A stretch of DNA of 64,000 nt from positions 1,435,215 to 1,499,214 of the forward strand of contig NZ_LT607802.1 of NCBI RefSeq assembly GCF_900090205.1, written 5' to 3'. Positions 24,395-43,399 of this stretch are shown piece after piece; within the stretch, counting starts at the first letter, position 1; every line of letters starts with the position of its first letter. Made by a program: the position numbers and the translations under genes. The notes under the pieces were generated by a model. The model saw nothing but the letters and a program-made list of their open reading frames with translations. It was not told where the DNA came from and searched no databases. Source of the DNA: Vogesella sp. LIG4 (lineage in GTDB: Bacteria; Pseudomonadota; Gammaproteobacteria; Burkholderiales; Chromobacteriaceae).

Positions 24395-25093
24395 CTACCA
24401 GCAAGCCCGCTTGAACAAGCTCAGATGGTTGACGCGAAACAGCCTGGCCGGGCGTTGGCTGCCGCCGAGAAATTCGTCGGTAGCAATCAGGATATCCGCC
24501 TCGTCTGCCGACTCCCCTGGCCTGGCATCTCCAACTCTGATGCCAAGACGCGAGCGGAAAGTGCCTCGCGAGACGGTCTCTCCAAATATCTGTTCATAGG
24601 TGCGCTGCAACTGGGTCAACGTGAACAACTCCGGCAACAACCAGCAGGGCAGGGTGGAATAGCTGGCCTTGTTGCGCACCCGCTGTACGGCCTCGCGGAC
24701 TTGCTCGGCATGGTCGAAGGCCAGCTCCGGCAGCTGGTCCACGTCGTAGAAGTGGAAAACACCGTCCCCTACCCCCCGCAGCTCCTCCAGTGGAATCAGC
24801 GCTACATGTGAGATGGCCACCGACCAGCCGCGTGGATCGCGGTCCGGTCCGGCGAAGGTGCGTAGCTGCTCCAGATAGCGCGGCACCAGGCCGGTTTTCT
24901 GCTTGAGTACTCGCAACGCTGTCGCGTCGGCCGATGCATCCTCATCCACATGGACGTACCCCCCGGGGAGGGCCAGCTGCCCTCGGCAGGGATCATGCTC
25001 CCGGCGATGCAACGCCACTTTCAAGCCGCCTTCGGCCAAAGTGAGCAACACGATGTCGACACTGACTGCCGGCGTTGGGTAGTCCCTATCCAT
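24395..25093 (-). CDS. nrtR: NrtR-type NUDIX regulator of NAD metabolism
   Basis: A 232-residue protein with an N-terminal NUDIX domain (LALPGGYVHVDEDASADATALRVLKQKTG, in which the hydrolase box is degenerate: the REUXEE part reads RVLKQKT) and a C-terminal winged helix (LTQLQRTYEQIFGETVSRGTFRSRL). This is the architecture of NrtR, which senses ADP-ribose and represses NAD salvage genes. It is divergent from prs-nadV, and a perfect inverted repeat lies in the prs leader, consistent with control of that operon. Confidence 0.88.
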   Translation of the reverse strand: MDRDYPTPAVSVDIVLLTLAEGGLKVALHRREHDPCRGQLALPGGYVHVDEDASADATALRVLKQKTGLVPRYLEQLRTFAGPDRDPRGWSVAISHVALIPLEELRGVGDGVFHFYDVDQLPELAFDHAEQVREAVQRVRNKASYSTLPCWLLPELFTLTQLQRTYEQIFGETVSRGTFRSRLGIRVGDARPGESADEADILIATDEFLGGSQRPARLFRVNHLSLFKRACW

Positions 25094-25140
25094 TGCAAAC
25101 CCCGCTAATCCTGATCACGGCACTATTTTCACCGAGATAG

Positions 25141-25170
25141 TTGCAAAGTTCAACTAAGTATTATTATACT
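25141..25170 (+). promoter_or_regulatory. Promoter of the prs-nadV operon
   Basis: A -35 TTGCAA (25141-25146) and -10 TATACT (25165-25170) are separated by 18 bp. Transcription would start near 25177, directly at the NrtR-type operator. Confidence 0.6.
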
Positions 25171-25179
25171 GAATGCATG

Positions 25180-25200
25180 TTAGTCGAAATGATCGACTAA
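25180..25200. promoter_or_regulatory. Probable NrtR operator
   Basis: Perfect inverted repeat TTAGTCG (25180-25186), 7-bp spacer, CGACTAA (25194-25200). It lies just downstream of the predicted transcription start and upstream of prs, where binding would block transcription. The factor is inferred from the neighbouring nrtR gene. Confidence 0.65.
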
Positions 25201-25217
25201 GCGGAAAGGTGAACGCC

Positions 25218-26030
25218 ATGATCAAGGTTTACGCGGTATCGCGCGACGGGGCCTCGCAAGACATCGAGGTCAACACCACGATGTTTCCCGGGGGTGAAGT
25301 CCATGTATCGGTGGGGCTGGATATTCCGGCCGACTCTTTGCGGTTGCATGCCCATCTGCCGAATGCAGCGGCGGTGATGACGCTGCTCCTGGTGACCGAT
25401 GCCTTGCGCCGCGCCTATCCCGGCCTGCCGCTGTCATTACACATGCCGTACGTGCCCTATGCCCGTCAGGATCGCGTGGCCAACCCCGGCGAAGCCCTCA
25501 GTGCCAAGGTCTTCTGCGATCTGATCAATGCCCAGGGCTACAGCCGGGTGCTGATCCAGGACCCGCATAGCGATGTTGTACCGGCGCTGCTGGACCGGGT
25601 TGTCATCGAAGACCCCTTGCCAGCGTTACGCAAGGTGTTGGCCCAGGTGGGACCGGTGGCACTGGTGGCGCCGGATGCCGGCGCGCGCAAGCGTGTGCTC
25701 AAGCTGGCGCAACAACTCGGCTGCGACGTGGTATTTGCGGACAAGGTACGCGACACCCGCACAGGGGCCATCACCGGTACACAGGTGGCTGGCTCGCTGC
25801 CAGCACTGCCATTGCTGGTGGTCGACGACATCTGCGATGGCGGTCGCACTTTCACCGAGCTGGCTACAGTGCTGCGGGCTCGGCAGATCGAACAGGATCT
25901 GCATGCGCCGCTTTACCTGTATGTGACCCACGGCATTTTCAGCAAGGGGCCAGAGCCGCTGCTGGCTCACTACCGACAGCTTTTCACCCGCAACAACTGG
26001 AGCGGCGATCTGCGCTGCGCACTGGTCTGA
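25218..26030 (+). CDS. prs: Ribose-phosphate pyrophosphokinase-like protein
   Basis: A 270-residue PRPP synthetase, shorter than the usual ~310. Visible motifs are YARQDRVANPGE, the DPHS metal/ATP motif and the PRPP-binding loop VVDDICDGGRTF. It would make the PRPP needed by the nicotinamide phosphoribosyltransferase encoded next. ATG 25218 has AAAGG upstream and gives the conserved N-terminus (MIKVYAVSRDG). It is 23 bp upstream of nadV. A dedicated prs copy in a NAD salvage operon is a known NrtR-regulon arrangement. Confidence 0.88.
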   Translation: MIKVYAVSRDGASQDIEVNTTMFPGGEVHVSVGLDIPADSLRLHAHLPNAAAVMTLLLVTDALRRAYPGLPLSLHMPYVPYARQDRVANPGEALSAKVFCDLINAQGYSRVLIQDPHSDVVPALLDRVVIEDPLPALRKVLAQVGPVALVAPDAGARKRVLKLAQQLGCDVVFADKVRDTRTGAITGTQVAGSLPALPLLVVDDICDGGRTFTELATVLRARQIEQDLHAPLYLYVTHGIFSKGPEPLLAHYRQLFTRNNWSGDLRCALV

Positions 26031-26053
26031 ACCCTGACTCGATGGAGACACTG

Positions 26054-27772
26054 ATGAACGCCCCAACTCGCCGTGAAGTGCTCGAAAAGAACAATCTGGT
26101 TCCGTTCAACCTGGCTGACTTCTACAAGACCGGCCACCCATCCATGTACCCGGCTGCCACCACCAAGCTGGTGGCCAACTTCACGCCCCGCTCGGCCAAG
26201 TACGCACCAGTGCTGAAGGAGCTGTTTGACGACAAGGTAGTCTGGTTCGGTCTGCAGGGTTTCATCCAGGAATTCCTGATCGACCTCTTCGGCAAGGAGT
26301 TCTTCCGCAAGCCGAAGGGACAGGCCGTCCGTAAATACCAGCGCCGTATGGATACCGCGCTCGGCCCTGGCGCCGTGGCCGCCTCCCGCCTGGAAGCACT
26401 GCACGAACTCGGCTACCTGCCGCTGGAGATTCGCTCGCTGCCGGAAGGCTCGCGGGTGGATATCAAGGTGCCGCCGGTCATCTTCATCAACACGCATCCG
26501 GATTTTCCGTGGGTGGCGACCTATTTTGAAACCCTGTTCAGCTGCGAAACGTGGAAGCCCTCGACGGTGGCCACCATCGCCTTCGAGTTCCGCAAGCTGC
26601 TGGACTATTTCGCCCAGCTCACCGGGACGGCGCCGGAATTCGTCGGCTGGCAGGGACACGACTTCTCGATGCGCGGCATGAGCGGAGTGCACGACGCGAT
26701 GCGCTGCGGCGCCGGCCACCTGCTGTCGTTCACCGGTACCGACACTATCCCGGCACTCGACTACCTGGAGGATTTCTACGGTGCCGATGCCGACAACGAG
26801 CTGGTAGGCGGTTCTATCCCGGCTTCCGAGCACAGCGTGATGGCACTGCGCATTCTGCTGACGCTGCAGCGCCTGCGCCGCGATCCAGCCAATACCGCCC
26901 TGAATGAGCCAGCGCTGCGCCGCAAGGCGGAACTGGCGGTGGTTCGCGAGTTCGTCACCCAAGACTACCCGGCAGGGATGGTCTCCATCGTCAGCGACAC
27001 TTTCGATTTCTGGAACGTCATCACCGTGATCGCCAGGGAGCTGAAGGCGGACATCCTGGCGCGCAAGCCGGATGCGCTGGGCAATGCCAAGGTGGTGTTC
27101 CGCCCCGACTCGGGCGACCCGGTGAAGATCCTGACCGGCTACACTGCTGACGAACTGCAGTGCGAGGCCGGCCAGCCGCTGGTGGACGATGCTGGCCGCT
27201 ACATCGTCAAGGCGACGGGCGAGCGGATCACCGAGGCCGAGCGCAAGGGCGCGGTGGAGTGCTTGTGGGAAATCTACGGCGAAACCACGACGAGCCAAGG
27301 CTTCAAGCTGCTCGATGCCCATGTCGGTCTGATCTATGGAGACTCGATCACCCTGCCGCGCGCCCGCGACATCCTGCTACGCCTGGCTGCCAAGGGGTTT
27401 GCCTCCGGCAATGTGGTGTTTGGCATTGGCAGCTTCGTCTACGGCATGAACTCCCGCGATACCTTTGGCTATGCGCTGAAGGCTATCTATGCCGAAGTGG
27501 ATGGCGAGGCGGTGGACATCTACAAGGATCCGGCCACGGACGATGGCACCAAAAAGTCCGCCAAGGGCATGGTACGGGTTGAGCGGGAAGGTGACTGCTT
27601 CGTATTGTATGAGCAGCAAACGCCGGAGCAAGCTGAAGGCGGTGCGCTGGTGCCGGTATTCCGGGATGGCGAGCTACTGGTGAGGCAGTCGCTGGCTGAC
27701 ATCCGGGAACGTCTGCAGTCATCCTGGCACTGCCCAGAGGTTGGCAGTATCCGTTGGCACAGCCAAGGCTAA
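26054..27772 (+). CDS. nadV: Nicotinamide phosphoribosyltransferase
   Basis: A 572-residue NAMPT/NadV enzyme that makes NMN from nicotinamide and PRPP. Motifs include LADFYKTGHPSMYP, GHDFSMRGMSG, the FTGTDTIPAL block whose Asp distinguishes NAMPT from nicotinate enzymes, GGSIPASEHSVM and the phosphate-binding VVFRPDSGDPVKI. It is longer than the typical ~460-500, with an insert near residues 360-400 (EAGQPLVDDAGRYIVKATGE). GGAG precedes ATG 26054. A strong terminator follows the stop. A second, shorter paralogue is at 59334. Confidence 0.92.
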   Translation: MNAPTRREVLEKNNLVPFNLADFYKTGHPSMYPAATTKLVANFTPRSAKYAPVLKELFDDKVVWFGLQGFIQEFLIDLFGKEFFRKPKGQAVRKYQRRMDTALGPGAVAASRLEALHELGYLPLEIRSLPEGSRVDIKVPPVIFINTHPDFPWVATYFETLFSCETWKPSTVATIAFEFRKLLDYFAQLTGTAPEFVGWQGHDFSMRGMSGVHDAMRCGAGHLLSFTGTDTIPALDYLEDFYGADADNELVGGSIPASEHSVMALRILLTLQRLRRDPANTALNEPALRRKAELAVVREFVTQDYPAGMVSIVSDTFDFWNVITVIARELKADILARKPDALGNAKVVFRPDSGDPVKILTGYTADELQCEAGQPLVDDAGRYIVKATGERITEAERKGAVECLWEIYGETTTSQGFKLLDAHVGLIYGDSITLPRARDILLRLAAKGFASGNVVFGIGSFVYGMNSRDTFGYALKAIYAEVDGEAVDIYKDPATDDGTKKSAKGMVRVEREGDCFVLYEQQTPEQAEGGALVPVFRDGELLVRQSLADIRERLQSSWHCPEVGSIRWHSQG

Positions 27773-27917: not shown

Positions 27918-28101
27918 GACGAACTTTATTCAGACGTCGCGAAATGAGGTGGCACGAAGAACTGGTTGCGACGAACTTTCGGACGAAAAACGTATGACGC
28001 AAAATCAAGTACTTATGGTGCCATGTCGCGACGAACTTTATTCGCCCCCGTCAGACTACACCGAATAAAGTCTGTCGGATCCGAATAAAGTTTGTCGGAG
28101 T
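27918..28101. repeat. Repeat array B: five copies of the GACGAACTTTATTC site
   Basis: Three rightward copies (27918, 27970 shortened, 28030) and two leftward tandem copies with 20-bp period (AATAAAG at 28064 and 28084). The order, orientation and first spacing (52 bp) match array A. After both arrays comes GGAGTCTGA, then CCAA in array A and TCAA in array B, then the shared terminator hairpin. Arrays A and B thus bracket the nrtR-prs-nadV cassette as direct repeats. Confidence 0.7.
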
Positions 28102-28480: not shown

Positions 28481-30148
28481 ATGATCATTCTGAAAAACGT
28501 GGCCTTGCGCCGCGGTACCAAAGTCCTGCTCGACAACGCGTCGGTGACGCTCAATCCTGGGGAGAAAGTCGGCCTCGTCGGCCGCAACGGCGCAGGTAAA
28601 TCTTCGTTGTTCGCGGTGCTGAACGGCTCGCTGCACGAAGACGGCGGCGATGTGTCGATCCCGTCACAATGGCGTATGTCACAGGTGGCGCAGGACATGC
28701 CGGAAACGGAGCAGACGGCGACCGAGTTTGTGATCGAAGGCGATACCACCCTGCTCGCCGCGCAGCAGGAGGTGACCGAGGCCGAGGCCGGCGAAGACTA
28801 CATGCGCATGGCGCACGCCTATACCGCGCTCAACGATGCCGGCGCCCACGACGCGCCGGCACGGGCGCAGGCGCTGATTCTCGGGTTGGGTTTCAGCGTC
28901 GCCGAGCTGCAGCAGCCGGTGAACAGCTTTTCCGGCGGCTGGCGCATGCGGCTGCAACTGGCACGCGCGCTGATGTGTCCGTCCGACCTGCTGCTGCTGG
29001 ATGAGCCGACCAACCACCTGGATCTGGACGCGCTGGTATGGCTGGAAGCGTGGTTGAAGCAGTACGCCGGCACCATGGTGGTGATCAGCCATGACCGCGA
29101 ATTCCTCGATGCCGTCACCAACGTGACGCTGCACGTCGACAATGCCAAGCTGGTGCGCTACGGCGGCAACTACAGCAAGTTCGAGGACATGCGTGCCGAA
29201 CAGCTGGTCCTGCAGCAGGCGGCGCAGGCCAAGCAGCAGGAAAAGATGGCGCATCTGCAGAAGTTCATCGATCGCTTCAAGGCCAAGGCCAGCAAGGCGA
29301 AGCAGGCGCAGAGCCGCGTCAAGGCGCTGGAGCGGATGGAGAAGATTGCGCCGGTGTTGGCCGATGCCGAGTTCCAGTTCGAATTCAAGGAGCCGCAGAG
29401 CCTGCCGAACTCGATGCTGTCGATGACCGGCGCGGTGTTCGGCTATCCGGCGCCGGAGGGCGCGCCGGAAGACACTGCGCCGACGGTGATCGTGCGCAAC
29501 GTGAACCGCACCGTGCTGGCCGGGCAGCGTATCGGCATTCTCGGTGCCAACGGCCAGGGCAAGTCGACGCTGGTGAAAACCGTGGCCGAGGCGCTGCAGG
29601 CGGTCGGGGGCGAGATCATTCGCGGCAAGGGGCTCAATATCGGCTACTTCTCGCAGCAGGAGCTGGACGTGCTGCGGCCGGAGGACGATCCGCTGCAGCA
29701 CATGTTCCGTCTGGTGCGCGACACCCCGGCGGCGATGCGGCCGTCGGCCAACGATTGCCGCGAGCAGGGGCTGCGCAATTTCCTCGGCACCTTCAACTTC
29801 AGCGGCGACATGGTGAAGCAGGCGGTCGGCAGCATGAGCGGCGGCGAGAAGGCGCGGCTGGTGCTGTGCATGATCGTGTGGCAGCGGCCGAACCTGCTGC
29901 TGCTGGATGAACCGACCAACCATCTGGACCTCGCCACCCGCGAGGCGCTGAGCGTGGCGCTGAACGAGTTCGAAGGCTCGGTGATGCTGGTCAGCCACGA
30001 CCGGGCGTTGCTGCGCGCGGTGTGCGACGAATTCTGGATGGTGTCGCGTGGCGGGGTCAGCGATTTCGCGGGCGATCTGGACGATTACCAGGTCTACCTG
30101 CTGGAAGAGGCCAAGCGCCGGCGAGAAGAAGCGGCCGGAAAGCGTTAA
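28481..30148 (+). CDS. ABC-F family ATPase (YheS/Uup-like)
   Basis: A 555-residue soluble protein with two ABC ATPase domains and no membrane part. Walker A motifs are GRNGAGKSS (~residue 37) and GANGQGKST (~355), the signatures are SFSGGWRMR and SMSGGEKAR, and two DEPTNHLDL Walker B segments are seen. The linker (residues ~240-300) is charged and helical, as expected for ABC-F proteins that act on the ribosome. The gene is GC-rich like the downstream chromosome. Its ribosome site is weak. Confidence 0.92.
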   Translation: MIILKNVALRRGTKVLLDNASVTLNPGEKVGLVGRNGAGKSSLFAVLNGSLHEDGGDVSIPSQWRMSQVAQDMPETEQTATEFVIEGDTTLLAAQQEVTEAEAGEDYMRMAHAYTALNDAGAHDAPARAQALILGLGFSVAELQQPVNSFSGGWRMRLQLARALMCPSDLLLLDEPTNHLDLDALVWLEAWLKQYAGTMVVISHDREFLDAVTNVTLHVDNAKLVRYGGNYSKFEDMRAEQLVLQQAAQAKQQEKMAHLQKFIDRFKAKASKAKQAQSRVKALERMEKIAPVLADAEFQFEFKEPQSLPNSMLSMTGAVFGYPAPEGAPEDTAPTVIVRNVNRTVLAGQRIGILGANGQGKSTLVKTVAEALQAVGGEIIRGKGLNIGYFSQQELDVLRPEDDPLQHMFRLVRDTPAAMRPSANDCREQGLRNFLGTFNFSGDMVKQAVGSMSGGEKARLVLCMIVWQRPNLLLLDEPTNHLDLATREALSVALNEFEGSVMLVSHDRALLRAVCDEFWMVSRGGVSDFAGDLDDYQVYLLEEAKRRREEAAGKR

Positions 30149-30504
30149 GCCGGCCCGTCTGCGCGTTACCACCTTGCGCAAGCATAGGGCAGGATTGCCT
30201 ACAGGAGCCGGGGCCGCCCACTTCCAATAGGAAAGTGGCCATTTTTAGTGGTGACGTGGTTGCCTGTTAAGGCCGAAAACCGCTAGCGCTACATTGCTCA
30301 AAAGTTACCGCAGTAGTCTGCCAGCAGGCTGTGGAAATGAATTTGTGCAAATTTTGCACAAAGTAAGGGCGTTGGAGGCTCTTCTCACCACGACCTAAAG
30401 TGGCTCATGAATTGCTCACACTCGACTGCGAGTGCCTCTATACGCGCAGCGTTCAAAAAGGAAAAGCCCGCAAACGCGGGCTTTTCCTTTTGTTGTTCAC
30501 TTGA
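30149..30504. other. Gap between ABC-F gene and repeat-protein gene, with terminators
   Basis: A small hairpin CCACTT/AAGTGG with ATTTTTAG after it (30218-30246) probably ends the ABC-F transcript. The strong terminator at 30456-30491 ends the opposite gene. No gene was seen between. Confidence 0.6.
30456..30491 (-). terminator. Terminator downstream of the repeat-protein gene
   Basis: Perfect 16-bp stem AAAAGGAAAAGCCCGC / GCGGGCTTTTCCTTTT with loop AAAC. A-run and T-run flank it, so it works in both directions. Confidence 0.92.
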
Positions 30505-31107
30505 TTAGCCAATGTAAAAGGCATCGGTGCTCTCGCGCTTGGCGATGTAAAAGGCATCGGTGCTCTCGCGCTTGGCGATGTAAAAGGCATCGGTGCTCTC
30601 GCGCTTGGCGATGTACTGGGCATCGGTGCTCTCGCGCTTGGCGATGTACTGGGCATCGGTGCTCTCGCGCTTGGCGATGTACTGGGCATCGGTGCTCTCA
30701 CGCTTGGCGATGTACTGGGCATCGGTGCTCTCACGCTTGGCGATGTACTGGGCATCGGTGCTCTCGCGCTTGGCGATGTAAAAGGCATCGGTGCTCTCGC
30801 GCTTGGCGATGTAAAAGGCATCGGTGCTCTCGCGCTTGGCGATGTACTGGGCATCGGTGCTCTCGCGCTTGGCGATGTACTGGGCATCGGTGCTTTCGCG
30901 CTTGGCGATGTACTGGGCATCGGTGCTTTCGCGCTTGGCGATGTACTGGGCATCGGTGCTTTCGCGCTTGGCGATGTACTGGGCATCGGTGCTCTCACGC
31001 TTGGCGATGTACTGGGCATCAGTGCTTTCGCGCTTGGCGATGGTTTCAGCCTGGGCAGTGCCGGCAAACACAGCAAAAATGGAAGCAATCAGTACCAGTT
31101 TTTTCAT
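30505..31107 (-). CDS. Secreted tandem-repeat protein, 16 x IAKRESTDA(Q/F)Y
   Basis: A 200-residue protein: a signal peptide (MKKLVLIASIFAVFAGTAQA, cleavage after AQA), then ET, then 16 uninterrupted copies of the 11-residue unit IAKRESTDA(Q/F)Y, ending IG. There is no other domain and no cysteine. Each unit has one dibasic KR, two acidic residues, and one Tyr. Ten or more nearly identical DNA copies of 33 bp differ only at silent positions, except that the ninth residue is Gln or Phe in blocks (6Q, 2F, 5Q, 3F from the N-terminus). ATG 31107 follows AAAGGA; ATG 31113 is possible. It could be a structural or adhesive secreted polymer, or a precursor cut at KR into small peptides. Neither is proven, and no family was recognised. 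Confidence 0.85.
   Translation of the reverse strand: MKKLVLIASIFAVFAGTAQAETIAKRESTDAQYIAKRESTDAQYIAKRESTDAQYIAKRESTDAQYIAKRESTDAQYIAKRESTDAQYIAKRESTDAFYIAKRESTDAFYIAKRESTDAQYIAKRESTDAQYIAKRESTDAQYIAKRESTDAQYIAKRESTDAQYIAKRESTDAFYIAKRESTDAFYIAKRESTDAFYIG
30510..31055. repeat. 33-bp tandem repeat, 16 copies
   Basis: The 33-bp unit encodes the 11-residue repeat on the minus strand. Silent differences are GAG/GAA, CGC/CGT and ACC/ACT. The only coding difference is CAG versus TTT (Gln versus Phe), a change of all three bases. Confidence 0.95.
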
Positions 31108-31247
31108 GATCATATCCTTTAATCAAAATTCGGCTTCAAGCTCAGGTGCCGGTTTGTTCGGTTGTCCGCCTTGTTTCATCCAGCCTGCAATCCGTTTGTC
31201 TTGGTTCGGACTGCCTTGGTGTACTTGTTCTGTGCTGCTATGTAGTA

Positions 31248-31275
31248 ACTATAGTTATTATCCTGATTAGAACAA
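31248..31275 (-). promoter_or_regulatory. Possible promoter and palindrome for the repeat-protein gene
   Basis: On the minus strand, -35 TTGTTC (31270-31275) and -10 TATAGT (31248-31253) are 16 bp apart. The -10 lies in a near-perfect palindrome TAGTAACTATAGTTATTA (31243-31260), which might bind a regulator. The leader would be about 135 nt long. The remaining gap to 31548 shows no gene. Confidence 0.4.
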
Positions 31276-31548
31276 AGCAGAAGAATTCGAAGCAGTCATT
31301 TTGAAGATTTGAACAGACAGGTCGGGGAGGTGGGCCAGCAACTGTTGTGAGTAGCGTTTGCACAGAATGCCAACCTACTACCGGCTCGTCGGGTGGGCGG
31401 GTAGATCATCGGCCAAGTGGAGGTTGGTCGGTGAGTGCTCTACGTCCACGTTGGCCAAGCTGCTGTCTGACTACCGTGATCAGCGGCAAATCGTCGGCCA
31501 ACGCTGAAGTAGTAGGGTGGGTGATACAGCGCCTGCTGTACACCGGAT

Positions 31549-31962
31549 TCAGCCACGCTGGGGGCTGAGTTCCGTCTGGATATAAATCTCACCACTTAGC
31601 AGCTTGTGCATAGGGCAGCTGTTGGCCACCTTCAGTAGTTGCGCCTGCTGTTCCTCGTTCAAGTCGCCCTGCAGGGCAATCCGGCGAACGATGTTGTTGC
31701 CGCTCTCCGGCTTGCCGTCCGGGTTGAGCTGCAATTCCACCTGGATGCCTGTCAGTGGCAATTGCCGACGAGCGGCAACCATCTTCAGGGTAATTGCCGT
31801 GCAGGCGCCAAGGCTGGCCAGAATCAGGCGTTCTGGCGTTGGTGCCGTGTTGCCGCCACCTGCCTCCAGCGGTTCGTCAGCTGTCCAGCTGTGGCCGAGA
31901 TCATCGGTGAACGAGACGATATAAGGCGTCTCTTGCAGTGTGGCTTTGACAGTTGGTGCCAT
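31549..31962 (-). CDS. OsmC-family peroxiredoxin-like protein
   Basis: A 137-residue OsmC/Ohr-type protein with the two redox cysteines: C54 in SLGACTAITL and the second in ANSCPMHKLL near residue 117. These enzymes reduce organic hydroperoxides with thiol partners. GAGGAGAG precedes the start. It is 14 bp after azoR and last of the operon pirin, ycaC-like, azoR, osmC-like, a typical response set to electrophiles and peroxides. Confidence 0.88.
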   Translation of the reverse strand: MAPTVKATLQETPYIVSFTDDLGHSWTADEPLEAGGGNTAPTPERLILASLGACTAITLKMVAARRQLPLTGIQVELQLNPDGKPESGNNIVRRIALQGDLNEEQQAQLLKVANSCPMHKLLSGEIYIQTELSPQRG

Positions 31963-31976
31963 TGGTACTTCTCTCC

Positions 31977-32579
31977 TCAGCTGGCAATGCGGCTCAGTTC
32001 GGCATGGGCAATTGCCAGCCCGGCTGCCTTGCTTTCCGCGCCCATGTTCAGGCCTTCTGCGTAAACAAATTCAACCTCGGTGATGCCGATAAAACCCAGG
32101 AAATTGCGCACGAAATCGGTCTGGGTATCAAAGGAAGTACCGGCATAACGGCCACCGCGCGTGGCGAAAACGTAGACCTTCTTGTTGGCGAGTAGCCCCT
32201 CGGGCCCGTTTGCCGTATAGCGGAAGGTGATGCCGGCGCGAGCGACATGATCCATCCAGGCTTTCAGCATCGACGGAACGCCCAGGTTGTACATCGGCAG
32301 GCCGATGACCAGCACGTCCGCCGCCTGCAGCTCGGCGATCAGCGCATCAGAGTAGGCAACCTTGGCCTGCTGTTGGTCGGTGCGCTCCCCCGGCTTGCTC
32401 AGGAAGGCCTGGAAGCCCGCGCCGTCCAGGTGTGGTACCGCTTCGGCGGCGAAGTCGCGGATGGTTACTTCCGATCCGGGCCGGCTGGCTTGCCAGGCCT
32501 CGACAAAGGCATCGGATAACTGGCTGGATTGCCCCTGATCGGCAAAGAGGCTGGTCTTGAGTTGCAGCAGTTTTTGCAT
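31977..32579 (-). CDS. azoR: FMN-dependent NADH-azoreductase / quinone reductase
   Basis: A 200-residue flavodoxin-like protein. LPMYNLGVPSMLKAWMDHVARAG and FATRGGRY are AzoR signatures for FMN binding. AzoR reduces azo dyes and quinones by two electrons with NADH. Length equals that of E. coli AzoR. It lies in the redox operon under the likely control of the divergent LysR gene. Confidence 0.92.
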   Translation of the reverse strand: MQKLLQLKTSLFADQGQSSQLSDAFVEAWQASRPGSEVTIRDFAAEAVPHLDGAGFQAFLSKPGERTDQQQAKVAYSDALIAELQAADVLVIGLPMYNLGVPSMLKAWMDHVARAGITFRYTANGPEGLLANKKVYVFATRGGRYAGTSFDTQTDFVRNFLGFIGITEVEFVYAEGLNMGAESKAAGLAIAHAELSRIAS

Positions 32580-32633
32580 GGTGCGTATTTCCCGGGTAAA
32601 GGGGTGCCGCCAGGAGGTGGCACCCCCACAGCC

Positions 32634-33260
32634 TTATTTGCTGTTCTGTACGGTGGTGTAGCTGTTGATCAGGTTGCGGTAGTCGGGGATGTGGTTGGCA
32701 AACAGGGTGCCCAGGCCCTCGACATCGTTGCGCCAGTCGCGGTGCAGTTCGCAGGCAACGCCGAACCAGGTCATCAGCTGGGCGCCGGCGGTGGACATGC
32801 GATCCCAGGCCGACTGGCGGGTCACCTCATTGAAGGTGCCGGAGGCATCGGTTACCACGAACACTTCGTAGCCTTCCGCCAGTGCGGACAGTGCCGGGAA
32901 GGCAACGCAGACTTCGGTAACGATGCCGGCGATGATCAGCTGTTTCTTGCCGGTGGCCTTCACCGCCGCCACGAAGTCTTCATTGTCCCAGGCGTTGATC
33001 TGGCCCGGCCGGGCGATGTATGGCGCATCCGGAAAGGTATCCTTCAGCTCGCTCATCAGCGGGCCGTTGGGGCCGTTTTCAAAGCTGGTGGTCAGGATGG
33101 TTGGCAGCTTGAAGTACTTGGCCAGATCAGCCAGCGCCAGCACGTTGTTGCGGAACTTGTCCGGGTCGATATCGCGCACCAGGGAGGACAGGCCGGCCTG
33201 GTGATCTACCAGCAACACGGCGGCGTTGTTCTTGTCGAGTTTGACGTAGGGCTTGCTCAT
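32634..33260 (-). CDS. Isochorismatase-fold hydrolase (YcaC-like)
   Basis: A 208-residue cysteine hydrolase of the isochorismatase fold. The catalytic Asp is in LLVDHQAGL, and the Cys in AGIVTEVCVAFPALSA, with the preceding non-proline TEVC region of the YcaC group. The natural substrate of YcaC is unknown. ATG 33260 has AAAAGGAG upstream. It lies 54 bp before azoR. Confidence 0.88.
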   Translation of the reverse strand: MSKPYVKLDKNNAAVLLVDHQAGLSSLVRDIDPDKFRNNVLALADLAKYFKLPTILTTSFENGPNGPLMSELKDTFPDAPYIARPGQINAWDNEDFVAAVKATGKKQLIIAGIVTEVCVAFPALSALAEGYEVFVVTDASGTFNEVTRQSAWDRMSTAGAQLMTWFGVACELHRDWRNDVEGLGTLFANHIPDYRNLINSYTTVQNSK

Positions 33261-33488
33261 GGGAATGCTCCTTTTCAGAGACGGGCCATGCTGGAAATCC
33301 AGCACGGCGGTGCATTTCCCGGCTTGCGTTGCCTGGCCGTGGCGGGCGATCAGCAACAGGCAAGCCGGGAAAATCCTGGTATTGACTTTTACCCGCGCAC
33401 TGCCAGCATCAGATGGAGCGATGCCGGGCCGGCGCGGGGAGGTGGCGGCTGAGCGCTAGCTCAGCCTCCTGCGGGTGCCGGCATGGGG

Positions 33489-34352
33489 TCAGCCGATGCG
33501 CCCAAAGCGGCCATGGTTGAAGTCGTCCACCGCCTGGCGGATTTCCGCTTCGCTGTTCATCACGAACGGGCCGTAGCCCACCACGGGCTCACCCAGTGGC
33601 TCGCCGTTGAGCAGCAGCAGTGTGCTGTCTTCGAGCACGTCAAACACCAGGCGGCTGCCGGCGCGCTCCATTACCGCCAGTTCGGCGCCGTGCACCTCGT
33701 GCTGATCCCCCAGGCGGATGGCGCCGTGCAGCACGAACAAGGCCGTGGTGTGTCCTTCCGGCAGATCGAACGCCACTTGATGACCGGCCTTCAGCCGCAG
33801 ATCCCAGACATTCATCGGCGTGAAGGTGTGTGACGCGCCGGCAGTGCCGTCGTAATTGCCGGCAATGACGCGCATCTGGCCGGCATCGTTAGGCAACGTC
33901 ACGGTGGGGATCTGCCCGGCGGTAATGCCCTGGTAGCCTGGTGCGGCCAACTTATTCTTTGCCGGCAGGTTGACCCACAGCTGGATCATCTCGAAGGCGC
34001 CGCCCTGGCTGGCGAAATCGGGGCTGTGGTATTCCTCGTGGATCAGGCCGGATGCGGCTGTCATCCATTGCACATCGCCCGGGCCGATGGTGCCGCCGCC
34101 ACCCGACGAGTCGCGGTGCGACACGCCGCCTTCGTAGACGATGGTCACCGTTTCGAAGCCGCGGTGCGGATGCTGGCCAACGCCGAGCTTGCGGGTGGTG
34201 GGCGGGAAGGTGGCCGGGCCGGCGTAGTCCATCAACAGGAACGGGGACATTTCCTCGGCGATATCGCGATAGGAAAAGATGCCCCGCACCGGGAAGCCGT
34301 CCCCGACCCAGTGACTGCCGCTGCCGCGTTTGATGAATGCCAGTTGTTTCAT
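33489..34352 (-). CDS. Pirin-family protein
   Basis: A 287-residue bicupin of the pirin family. GVGQHPHRGFETVTIVYEG holds metal ligands (HPHRG, E), and QWMTAASGLIHEEYH and FEMIQLWVNLP are pirin hallmarks. Bacterial pirins act on flavonoids or interact with metabolic enzymes. AAGGAGAG precedes ATG 34352. It is the first gene of the redox operon, although 228 bp separate it from the next gene. Confidence 0.92.
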   Translation of the reverse strand: MKQLAFIKRGSGSHWVGDGFPVRGIFSYRDIAEEMSPFLLMDYAGPATFPPTTRKLGVGQHPHRGFETVTIVYEGGVSHRDSSGGGGTIGPGDVQWMTAASGLIHEEYHSPDFASQGGAFEMIQLWVNLPAKNKLAAPGYQGITAGQIPTVTLPNDAGQMRVIAGNYDGTAGASHTFTPMNVWDLRLKAGHQVAFDLPEGHTTALFVLHGAIRLGDQHEVHGAELAVMERAGSRLVFDVLEDSTLLLLNGEPLGEPVVGYGPFVMNSEAEIRQAVDDFNHGRFGRIG

Positions 34353-34447
34353 GACTGCTCTCCTTGAGTGGATGCAGTTACTGTAGAAGGCTGACTGCCC
34401 ACGCACTAGATGGTTAAATACGAAAACATTTTCCAACTGGTTGCATA

Positions 34448-43080: not shown

Positions 43081-43399
43081 TGTGCGCCTCCTGAAAGCGC
43101 AGGCTTGGCGCCTGCTTTGCGCAAAACAATGCGGGCTCCGGCGTGCCGCCAGGGCAGCAGCCATGCTGGCTGACCGGTTGTTGATGTGACCGGTTGTAGA
43201 TGTGACTGATTGTAGATGCCGGCTGCGGCAGTTCCCAGCACATGGCAACAGGCCTTCGTCCACTTGCCGCGCAGCGGGCGGCGACAAGGCCTAAAGTGAT
43301 AAGGCCAAGCTGGTGTGCAGCGGCGTCGGGCAGCAAACGATGCCCGGCTCTGCAGCCCGGTTCTTTGTCCAGCAGCGTTCTAACGGGAAGGCAATCGCC

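Follow-up and report, generated by a model that had tools for sequence, protein, structure and literature searches.

Functional amyloids such as CsgA and FapC are built from units of about 20 residues, SilE-type metal sponges use His and Met, and insect resilin-like repeats carry an aromatic residue in each short unit and are free of Cys. Kexins, for their part, belong to subtilase family S8. A study of fungal KEX2-processed repeat proteins (KEPs) searched for proteins that combine a signal peptide with internal repeats separated by KEX2 sites (PMC6339444). The amino-acid tandem repeats of Borg elements, which are archaeal extrachromosomal elements, are described as perfect at the DNA level (PMC9879509).

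Here we describe a gene for a repeat protein in a stretch of 64,000 nucleotides from Vogesella sp. LIG4 (the window), together with the family to which it belongs, the selection on its units, the replacement of whole arrays, the conservation of its upstream region, and its neighbours. No title or abstract opening that we found in the literature on Vogesella treats such a protein. Genomes and arrays are cited by handles (e.g., G009) where they need to be told apart.

Structure of the repeat gene

The sequence-only reading of this locus described 16 copies of IAKRESTDA(Q/F)Y at 30505-31107, and both the translation and Tandem Repeats Finder (period 33, 15.8 copies, 96% match, score 906) agree with it. 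The open reading frame runs on the minus strand from an ATG at 31107 to the end of its stop codon at 30505 (Table 1). A second in-frame ATG lies at 31113, but it is too near the AAAGGA to be the start, so we placed the start at 31107 because of its spacing from AAAGGA (7 nt) and because relatives share a conserved ATGAAAAA start. The protein reads MKKLVLIASIFAVFAGTAQA, then ETI, sixteen 11-residue units, and a final G; the earlier statement that the entire mature part is repeat is therefore borne out, and its view of the protein as secreted is supported as a prediction made by eye. A similar signal-peptide-type start is seen by eye in all 15 complete arrays of the family.

Position 9 of the unit is Q in 11 and F in 5 of the 16 window units. 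The two forms differ by a whole codon (CAG or TTT), while all other differences between units of the window array are synonymous. Because these changes leave the unit intact but for Q/F, and because all 13 genomes of the genus carry an array, the window repeat is more than chance. Two short tandem repeats also lie outside the gene, at 43171-43218 (16 bases x 3) and 28061-28099 (20 bases x 2) of the window.

Table 1. Features at and around the repeat gene (window coordinates)
Feature	Position	Strand	Remarks
ABC-F ATPase (ABC_tran, ABC_tran_Xtn)	28481..30148	plus	convergent neighbour, context only; Pfam
Terminator hairpin, 16-bp stem	30456..30491	no strand	between repeat gene and convergent ABC-F gene
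Repeat protein gene	30505..31107	minus	200 aa + stop
16 units of 33 bases, AKRESTDA(Q/F)YI	30511..31038	minus	followed by Gly codon at 30508-30510
Predicted Sec signal peptide MKKLVLIASIFAVFAGTAQA	31048..31107	minus	by eye; probable cut after AQA
Likely ribosome-binding site AAAGGA	31115..31120	minus	from sequence; AAAGGA/AAGGA similarly placed in alignment of relatives
Conserved element ACTATAGTTACTACAT	31240..31255	minus	likely -10 hexamer TATAGT at 31248-31253
Pair of TTCRAA boxes upstream of promoter	31286..31314	minus	possible activator sites; alignment
OsmC, flavodoxin-fold (azoreductase-like), isochorismatase, pirin	31549..34436	minus	upstream neighbours, context only; Pfam

Distribution of the family

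The genome from which the window comes (4.15 Mb, one contig) holds three repeat genes. The other two form a tandem pair (319054-320616); the unit types there are AKRESSDSWYI/AKRESGDAYFL and AKRESSDNYFL/AKRESGDSYNI. A survey of copy number in related strains, which the sequence-only reading had proposed, found arrays in every Vogesella genome (13/13), with 6 to 17 units of 11 or 12 residues in the complete ones. Contig ends truncate the arrays of G001, G004, and G008, which were therefore excluded from unit counts; two full units can be seen at the contig end of G001. Unit statistics are thus those of 15 complete arrays from 10 genomes, with 171 of 175 units counted; the remaining four, all dibasic, are the first units of G000a, G002, G011, and G005, which the splitting rule assigned to the leader.

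A search of the bacterial family matched 27 of 61 genomes at E 0.1 or better, namely the 13 Vogesella genomes and 14 others, the latter at E 0.012 to 0.09, and no array was recognised in the 48 genomes of other genera. When 13 of the 14 outside loci were checked for an 11- or 12-residue periodicity (L062 is too short), one strong 11-residue repeat came up, in G019; it is unlike the unit, overlaps a 600-residue frame, and was rejected. Nor was a conserved gene found at the same place in sister genera, as the predicted ORFs beside ettA at 12 EttA loci from 16 genomes include no repeat gene. Apart from the window's own genome, no array was recognised in a 369-genome class sample. Six of its genomes matched at E 1e-4 or better, that is, the window's own and five more, and the six loci inspected from those five are DNA repeats open in several frames or have unlike units. 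The closest match of this sample, in G314 (RQSGDTPQIVG x 3, E 1e-6), comes from an intergenic stretch near the end of a contig, where the same DNA is present in three identical copies ahead of a transporter-type gene, with no in-frame start or signal peptide.

For the window protein, 77 pattern matches in genome contigs yielded no confirmed relative; the G011 protein matched six loci in genome contigs, all of them in Vogesella. In viral contigs, none of 555 pattern matches was a relative. Plasmid tblastn returned eight records (best E 6e-10, identities 27-46%). Among the three inspected, one match falls in a flotillin-type gene and two have no annotated gene beneath; the Paracoccus versutus match among them spans several long frames, and the repeats there do not form a clean array. 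As far as these searches reach, the family appears to be genus-wide and restricted to Vogesella. A Pfam match of 35 bits to the RNA polymerase epsilon subunit RpoY (PF07288; cut-off 25 bits) was set aside as a repeat artefact: the protein is of the exported type, and the match is split into six stretches along its repeats, the best of which covers 39 of 68 positions.

Selection on units and replacement of arrays

Arrays of this family are composed of 11-residue AKRE units, the 12-residue types ARREGGDAPYMV and AKIGDLEQPTNF, and, in G001, ARAGDYQEPSVF. Every counted unit (171/171) has an aromatic residue and an Asp at position 5-7. The comparison of codon variants was limited to inner units that have the most frequent length (139 units, 15 arrays), where 69 synonymous variants at 357 sites stand against 27 non-synonymous variants at 1,136 sites. 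The resulting within-array omega-like ratio is 0.12, with a Fisher p of 2e-21 that is only indicative, because variants inside one array are non-independent events. Seven arrays have 34 synonymous and no non-synonymous inner variants. The synonymous excess rules out a DNA-level repeat without a protein role, and units within arrays are held alike by selection; the family is real, under selection, and spread through the whole genus. The matching is less strict in some arrays: two of the three arrays of the window's genome show at least 10 amino acid changes or two alternating unit types (the non-synonymous inner variants number 11 in G000a and 5 in G000b). Positions 6, 8, and 9 hold 18 of the 27 non-synonymous variants.

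Between relatives, the picture is one of turnover. G009 and G007 are 96.9% identical in ettA, 99.4% in the 170 bases upstream, and 97.1% in the signal-peptide DNA, yet despite these near-identical flanks the unit of G009 is AKRESGDAAYI and that of G007 is AKIGDLEQPTNF. As units are alike within arrays and unlike between relatives, self-likeness is kept while identity turns over.

Likeness within a gene combined with unlikeness between relatives suggests that the protein works by its copies sticking together. Our preferred reading, to which we give a probability of about 0.38, is a genus-specific, self-matching exported repeat polymer whose units bind one another. The arrays in all genomes of the genus, the constraint within arrays, the replacement between them, and the copies at copper loci in G002 and G006 (see below) speak for it. 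The protein would likely leave the cytoplasm through its predicted export signal, after which its units would stick to each other and form a polymer, within the envelope or outside it, that serves as a coat or matrix. Each unit may be a short strand with the order aromatic, aliphatic, Ala, and basic (e.g., YIAKRE, YMVARRE, or TNFAKI), and the strands may be joined by a charged turn around the invariant Asp. We propose that selection keeps the copies in one protein alike because the units must match each other, and that the unit as a whole may change by recombination and unequal crossing-over, so that every species would end up with a polymer of its own. The gene is probably expressed from its conserved promoter under stress or in stationary phase. 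Against the polymer, no secretion system, nucleator, or matrix partner linked to the repeat genes was found.

Possible processing into peptides

A peptide precursor would also keep its units alike. The sequence-only reading had pointed to a dibasic KR in each unit, as in repeat precursors that are cut into many small peptides. This is true of the window's own array (16/16) but does not hold family-wide. Positions 2-3 are dibasic in 127 of 171 units and in none of the units of arrays G010b, G007, and G003, and KR therefore fails as a conserved processing mark. A basic residue at position 2 or 3, on the other hand, is present in 170 of 171 units, and 156 of 171 have no other.

The alternative suggested by this pattern is that a predicted exported chain would be cut at the basic residue of each junction and release many copies of one acidic peptide (e.g., ESTDAQYIA), which might act as a species-specific signal or an antimicrobial. 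We consider this less likely than the polymer, but a live rival to it. All 15 arrays do end in the way that a multi-peptide precursor would: the last unit is complete, and a single residue (A, G, S, or V) follows it, just before the site of the next basic residue, and selected unit identity with a swap of units between close species would fit a pheromone-like peptide. Cutting at basic residues would, however, cut the 15 units with an inner basic residue twice, and three arrays offer no dibasic site. The enzymes are a further difficulty. Nine of 13 Vogesella genomes, including that of the window, have family S8, but it is missing from four that carry arrays, whereas trypsin-family matches occur in all 13, at 2-3 per genome, and are only general in kind, not distinguished from DegP-type proteases. 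No protease was found among the neighbours scanned with Pfam, which agrees with the earlier remark that no processing enzyme sits next to the gene. The gene content at the ettA locus points both ways: several genomes have a gene for an oligopeptide-type binding protein near the repeat gene, beyond dioxygenase-like and LysR genes (SBP_bac_5 by Pfam, run on the window's genome), but the neighbour in the indigofera group is a phasin gene and not a peptide transporter.

In a bolder form of this alternative, the family would be the bacterial equivalent, not known until now, of alpha-factor-type precursors in fungi, with 6-17 peptide copies exported by Sec, one basic cut per unit, and a peptide identity that, as with mating or kin types, is exchanged among closely related species. 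We regard it as quite unlikely.

Gene neighbourhoods

The repeat gene lies tail to tail with ettA in G009, G007, G003, G006, G002, G011, and G005, where this was measured, and also in G008. A tandem pair of repeat genes lies about 4 kb beyond ettA in the window's genome and in G010, and the genes in between are presumably solute-binding-protein-like, alanine-racemase-like, and LysR-like. Upstream of this pair, the window's genome has genes for a LigB-type dioxygenase, DoxX, a divergent LysR regulator, and SBP_bac_5. Similar protein starts for the dioxygenase, LysR, and the binding protein were found by sequence likeness in G006, G009, G007, G003, G008, and G001, with Pfam run on the window's genome. 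The indigofera group has its phasin gene at that ettA locus instead.

The surroundings of the window copy are different. Its convergent ABC-F neighbour is one that we take to be YheS-like, and a divergent LysR gene accompanies the operon of OsmC, azoreductase-like, isochorismatase, and pirin genes. We rejected a function for the window copy based on these neighbours, since a search for its OsmC gene at E 1e-20 finds it in only 1 of the 13 genomes. Three genes that stand together at 24395-27772 of the window likely form an NAD salvage cluster; we assume them to encode a NUDIX-like regulator, a ribose-phosphate pyrophosphokinase-like protein, and a nicotinamide phosphoribosyltransferase-like protein.

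Extra copies in two genomes lie among copper genes. In G002, where the neighbours were identified by Pfam, a CusRS-like pair flanks the copy on one side; on the other are genes encoding a multicopper oxidase, a cupredoxin, CusF, and cytochrome c, and one gene without a Pfam family lies between. G006 has a similar setting, judged by the sequence likeness of its neighbours. Such surroundings raise the possibility of an envelope sponge for copper or another metal, with a role like that of SilE, which we hold to be very improbable: none of the 171 units has Cys or His, Met occurs only in PYMV-type units and in one G000a unit, and the other 13 of the 15 arrays lie outside copper loci.

Upstream region and terminator

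The sequence-only reading gave the gene its own promoter and a strong terminator. Its promoter claim stands in part. The upstream region is conserved across genes and species in an alignment, but a simple scan found no sigma-70 promoter (0 found; mean of 0.6 in shuffles). The conserved element ACTATAGTTACTACAT occurs exactly at two places in the window's genome, both at repeat genes, and never in 100 shuffles of the window. With up to three mismatches it has 5 matches in the genome, compared to 16 for the reversed control, so its weaker matches are meaningless. We counted motifs in 13 upstream regions, that is, all aligned ones except those of the two copper copies. TATAGT is present in 12 of the 13 (G006A has TAAAGT), CAT follows it in all 13, and a TTCRAA box lies about 30 bases ahead of it in 9. 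The paired TTCRAA motif has four matches genome-wide, two of them at repeat genes, and its reversed control has two. We take ACTATAGTTACTACAT with its TATAGT to resemble sigma-S promoters, and the repeat gene may have a promoter of that type.

The -10 region at 31246-31257 of the window is a palindrome, TAACTATAGTTA, and both of its arms change together in relatives, giving TCACTATAGTGA in G009, G007, G003, and G001; a dimeric regulator may therefore bind there. The copper-locus copies of G002 and G006 (L075:9066-9419 and L081:9325-9594) differ from all other copies in their upstream region. In G003, which lacks some of the conserved boxes ahead of the repeat gene, an extra 310-residue ORF (L086:10133-11062) lies immediately upstream at that place. 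The leader up to the ATG spans about 130-150 bases in the aligned regions. A riboswitch in it was rejected, as no Rfam family reached its gathering score at four loci and the fold z was -0.79.

The terminator is borne out by its fold energy (-27.1 kcal/mol, z -6.0). A standard scan, whose rule requires a T run after the stem, found none (shuffles mean 1.5). In G009, the terminator region that the repeat gene shares with ettA is longer by about 200 bases, which lie between the two genes and include a hairpin-like stretch (L074:9431-9710).

Predicted fold and possible stress protection

AlphaFold2 predicts a single long helix for the window protein (pLDDT 89.1, pTM 0.33), and long helices on perfect repeats are a weakness of this method. 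For the V. indigofera protein it gives repeated strands (e.g., YMVARRE) with turns, at low confidence (47.5). The helix of the window variant and the low confidence of this beta model both weigh against the strands of the proposed polymer, and neither model settles the fold. Positions 6, 8, and 9, the most variable of the unit, fall in the turn of the V. indigofera model, and a strand/turn reading of the unit would thus fit where units vary. A helical rod as the fold of the family was rejected on account of the 12-residue and Pro units. The constant 11-residue period of LEA proteins and hendecad coiled coils was not found either: several arrays have 12-residue units, G002cu mixes the two lengths within one protein (12- and then 11-residue units), and the indigofera-type unit has Pro and Gly-Gly.

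The chains are near-neutral to weakly acidic with 25-37% charged residues, which is in line with the polymer. That 14 of 15 lie just on the disordered side of a charge-hydropathy plot counts against it and would suit another role. A disordered polyampholyte in the periplasm might shield envelope proteins from drying, metals, and oxidants, as hydrophilin/LEA proteins do. Along with the charge of the chains, the helix model of the window variant, the redox and copper neighbours, and a -10 that may be sigma-S-like are in keeping with such a shield. Even so, we think it rather improbable. The low within-array ratio, with seven arrays free of any amino acid change, is tighter than a role that depends on composition alone would need, and an aromatic residue in every unit is, to our knowledge, not typical of hydrophilin/LEA-type proteins. 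Its redox neighbours also vary by locus, the window's OsmC gene being the case in point.

Significance of the family

What is conserved in this family is that units match each other, not which unit they are. Unlike arrays in near-identical flanks amount to a natural experiment on how repeat proteins change their identity. As the gene is small and has few copies, the polymer, peptide, and stress models could be separated in one set of tests, and if peptides are released, Gram-negative bacteria would have a new route to make signals.

Comparison with known systems

The Vogesella proteins resemble KEPs and alpha-factor precursors in their signal peptide (by eye), their near-identical short repeats, the basic residue at each junction, and arrays that end without a trailing site. 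They differ in being bacterial, in having a dibasic site in only 127 of 171 units, and in the presence of an S8 protease in only 9 of 13 genomes. Like the Borg repeats, the units are in-frame, fast-evolving, and free of Cys, but they differ synonymously at the DNA level and account for almost all of the mature protein. SilE (PMC5008109) offers the likeness of a small, exported-type disordered protein beside metal-resistance genes, which applies to 2 of the 15 arrays, though no Vogesella unit has the His of SilE. The resemblance to insect resilin-like repeats is one of composition only, with no homology shown, and dityrosine links cannot be general, because AKIGDLEQPTNF arrays have Phe and no Tyr.

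With units of 11-12 residues, the family also departs from the functional amyloids. A curlin repeat is not among the 14 Pfam families that match up to E 10, and no csg or fap gene was recognised among the annotated neighbours. CsgG-family matches occur in 8 of 13 genomes (5.5e-28 in the window's own) and in none of five others that carry arrays, and only G007 reaches a curli-like score (3e-74), so that CsgG does not qualify as the exporter. The likeness to CsgA and FapC (PMC9268375) is that of exported proteins built from repeats, and it would probably extend to self-assembly.
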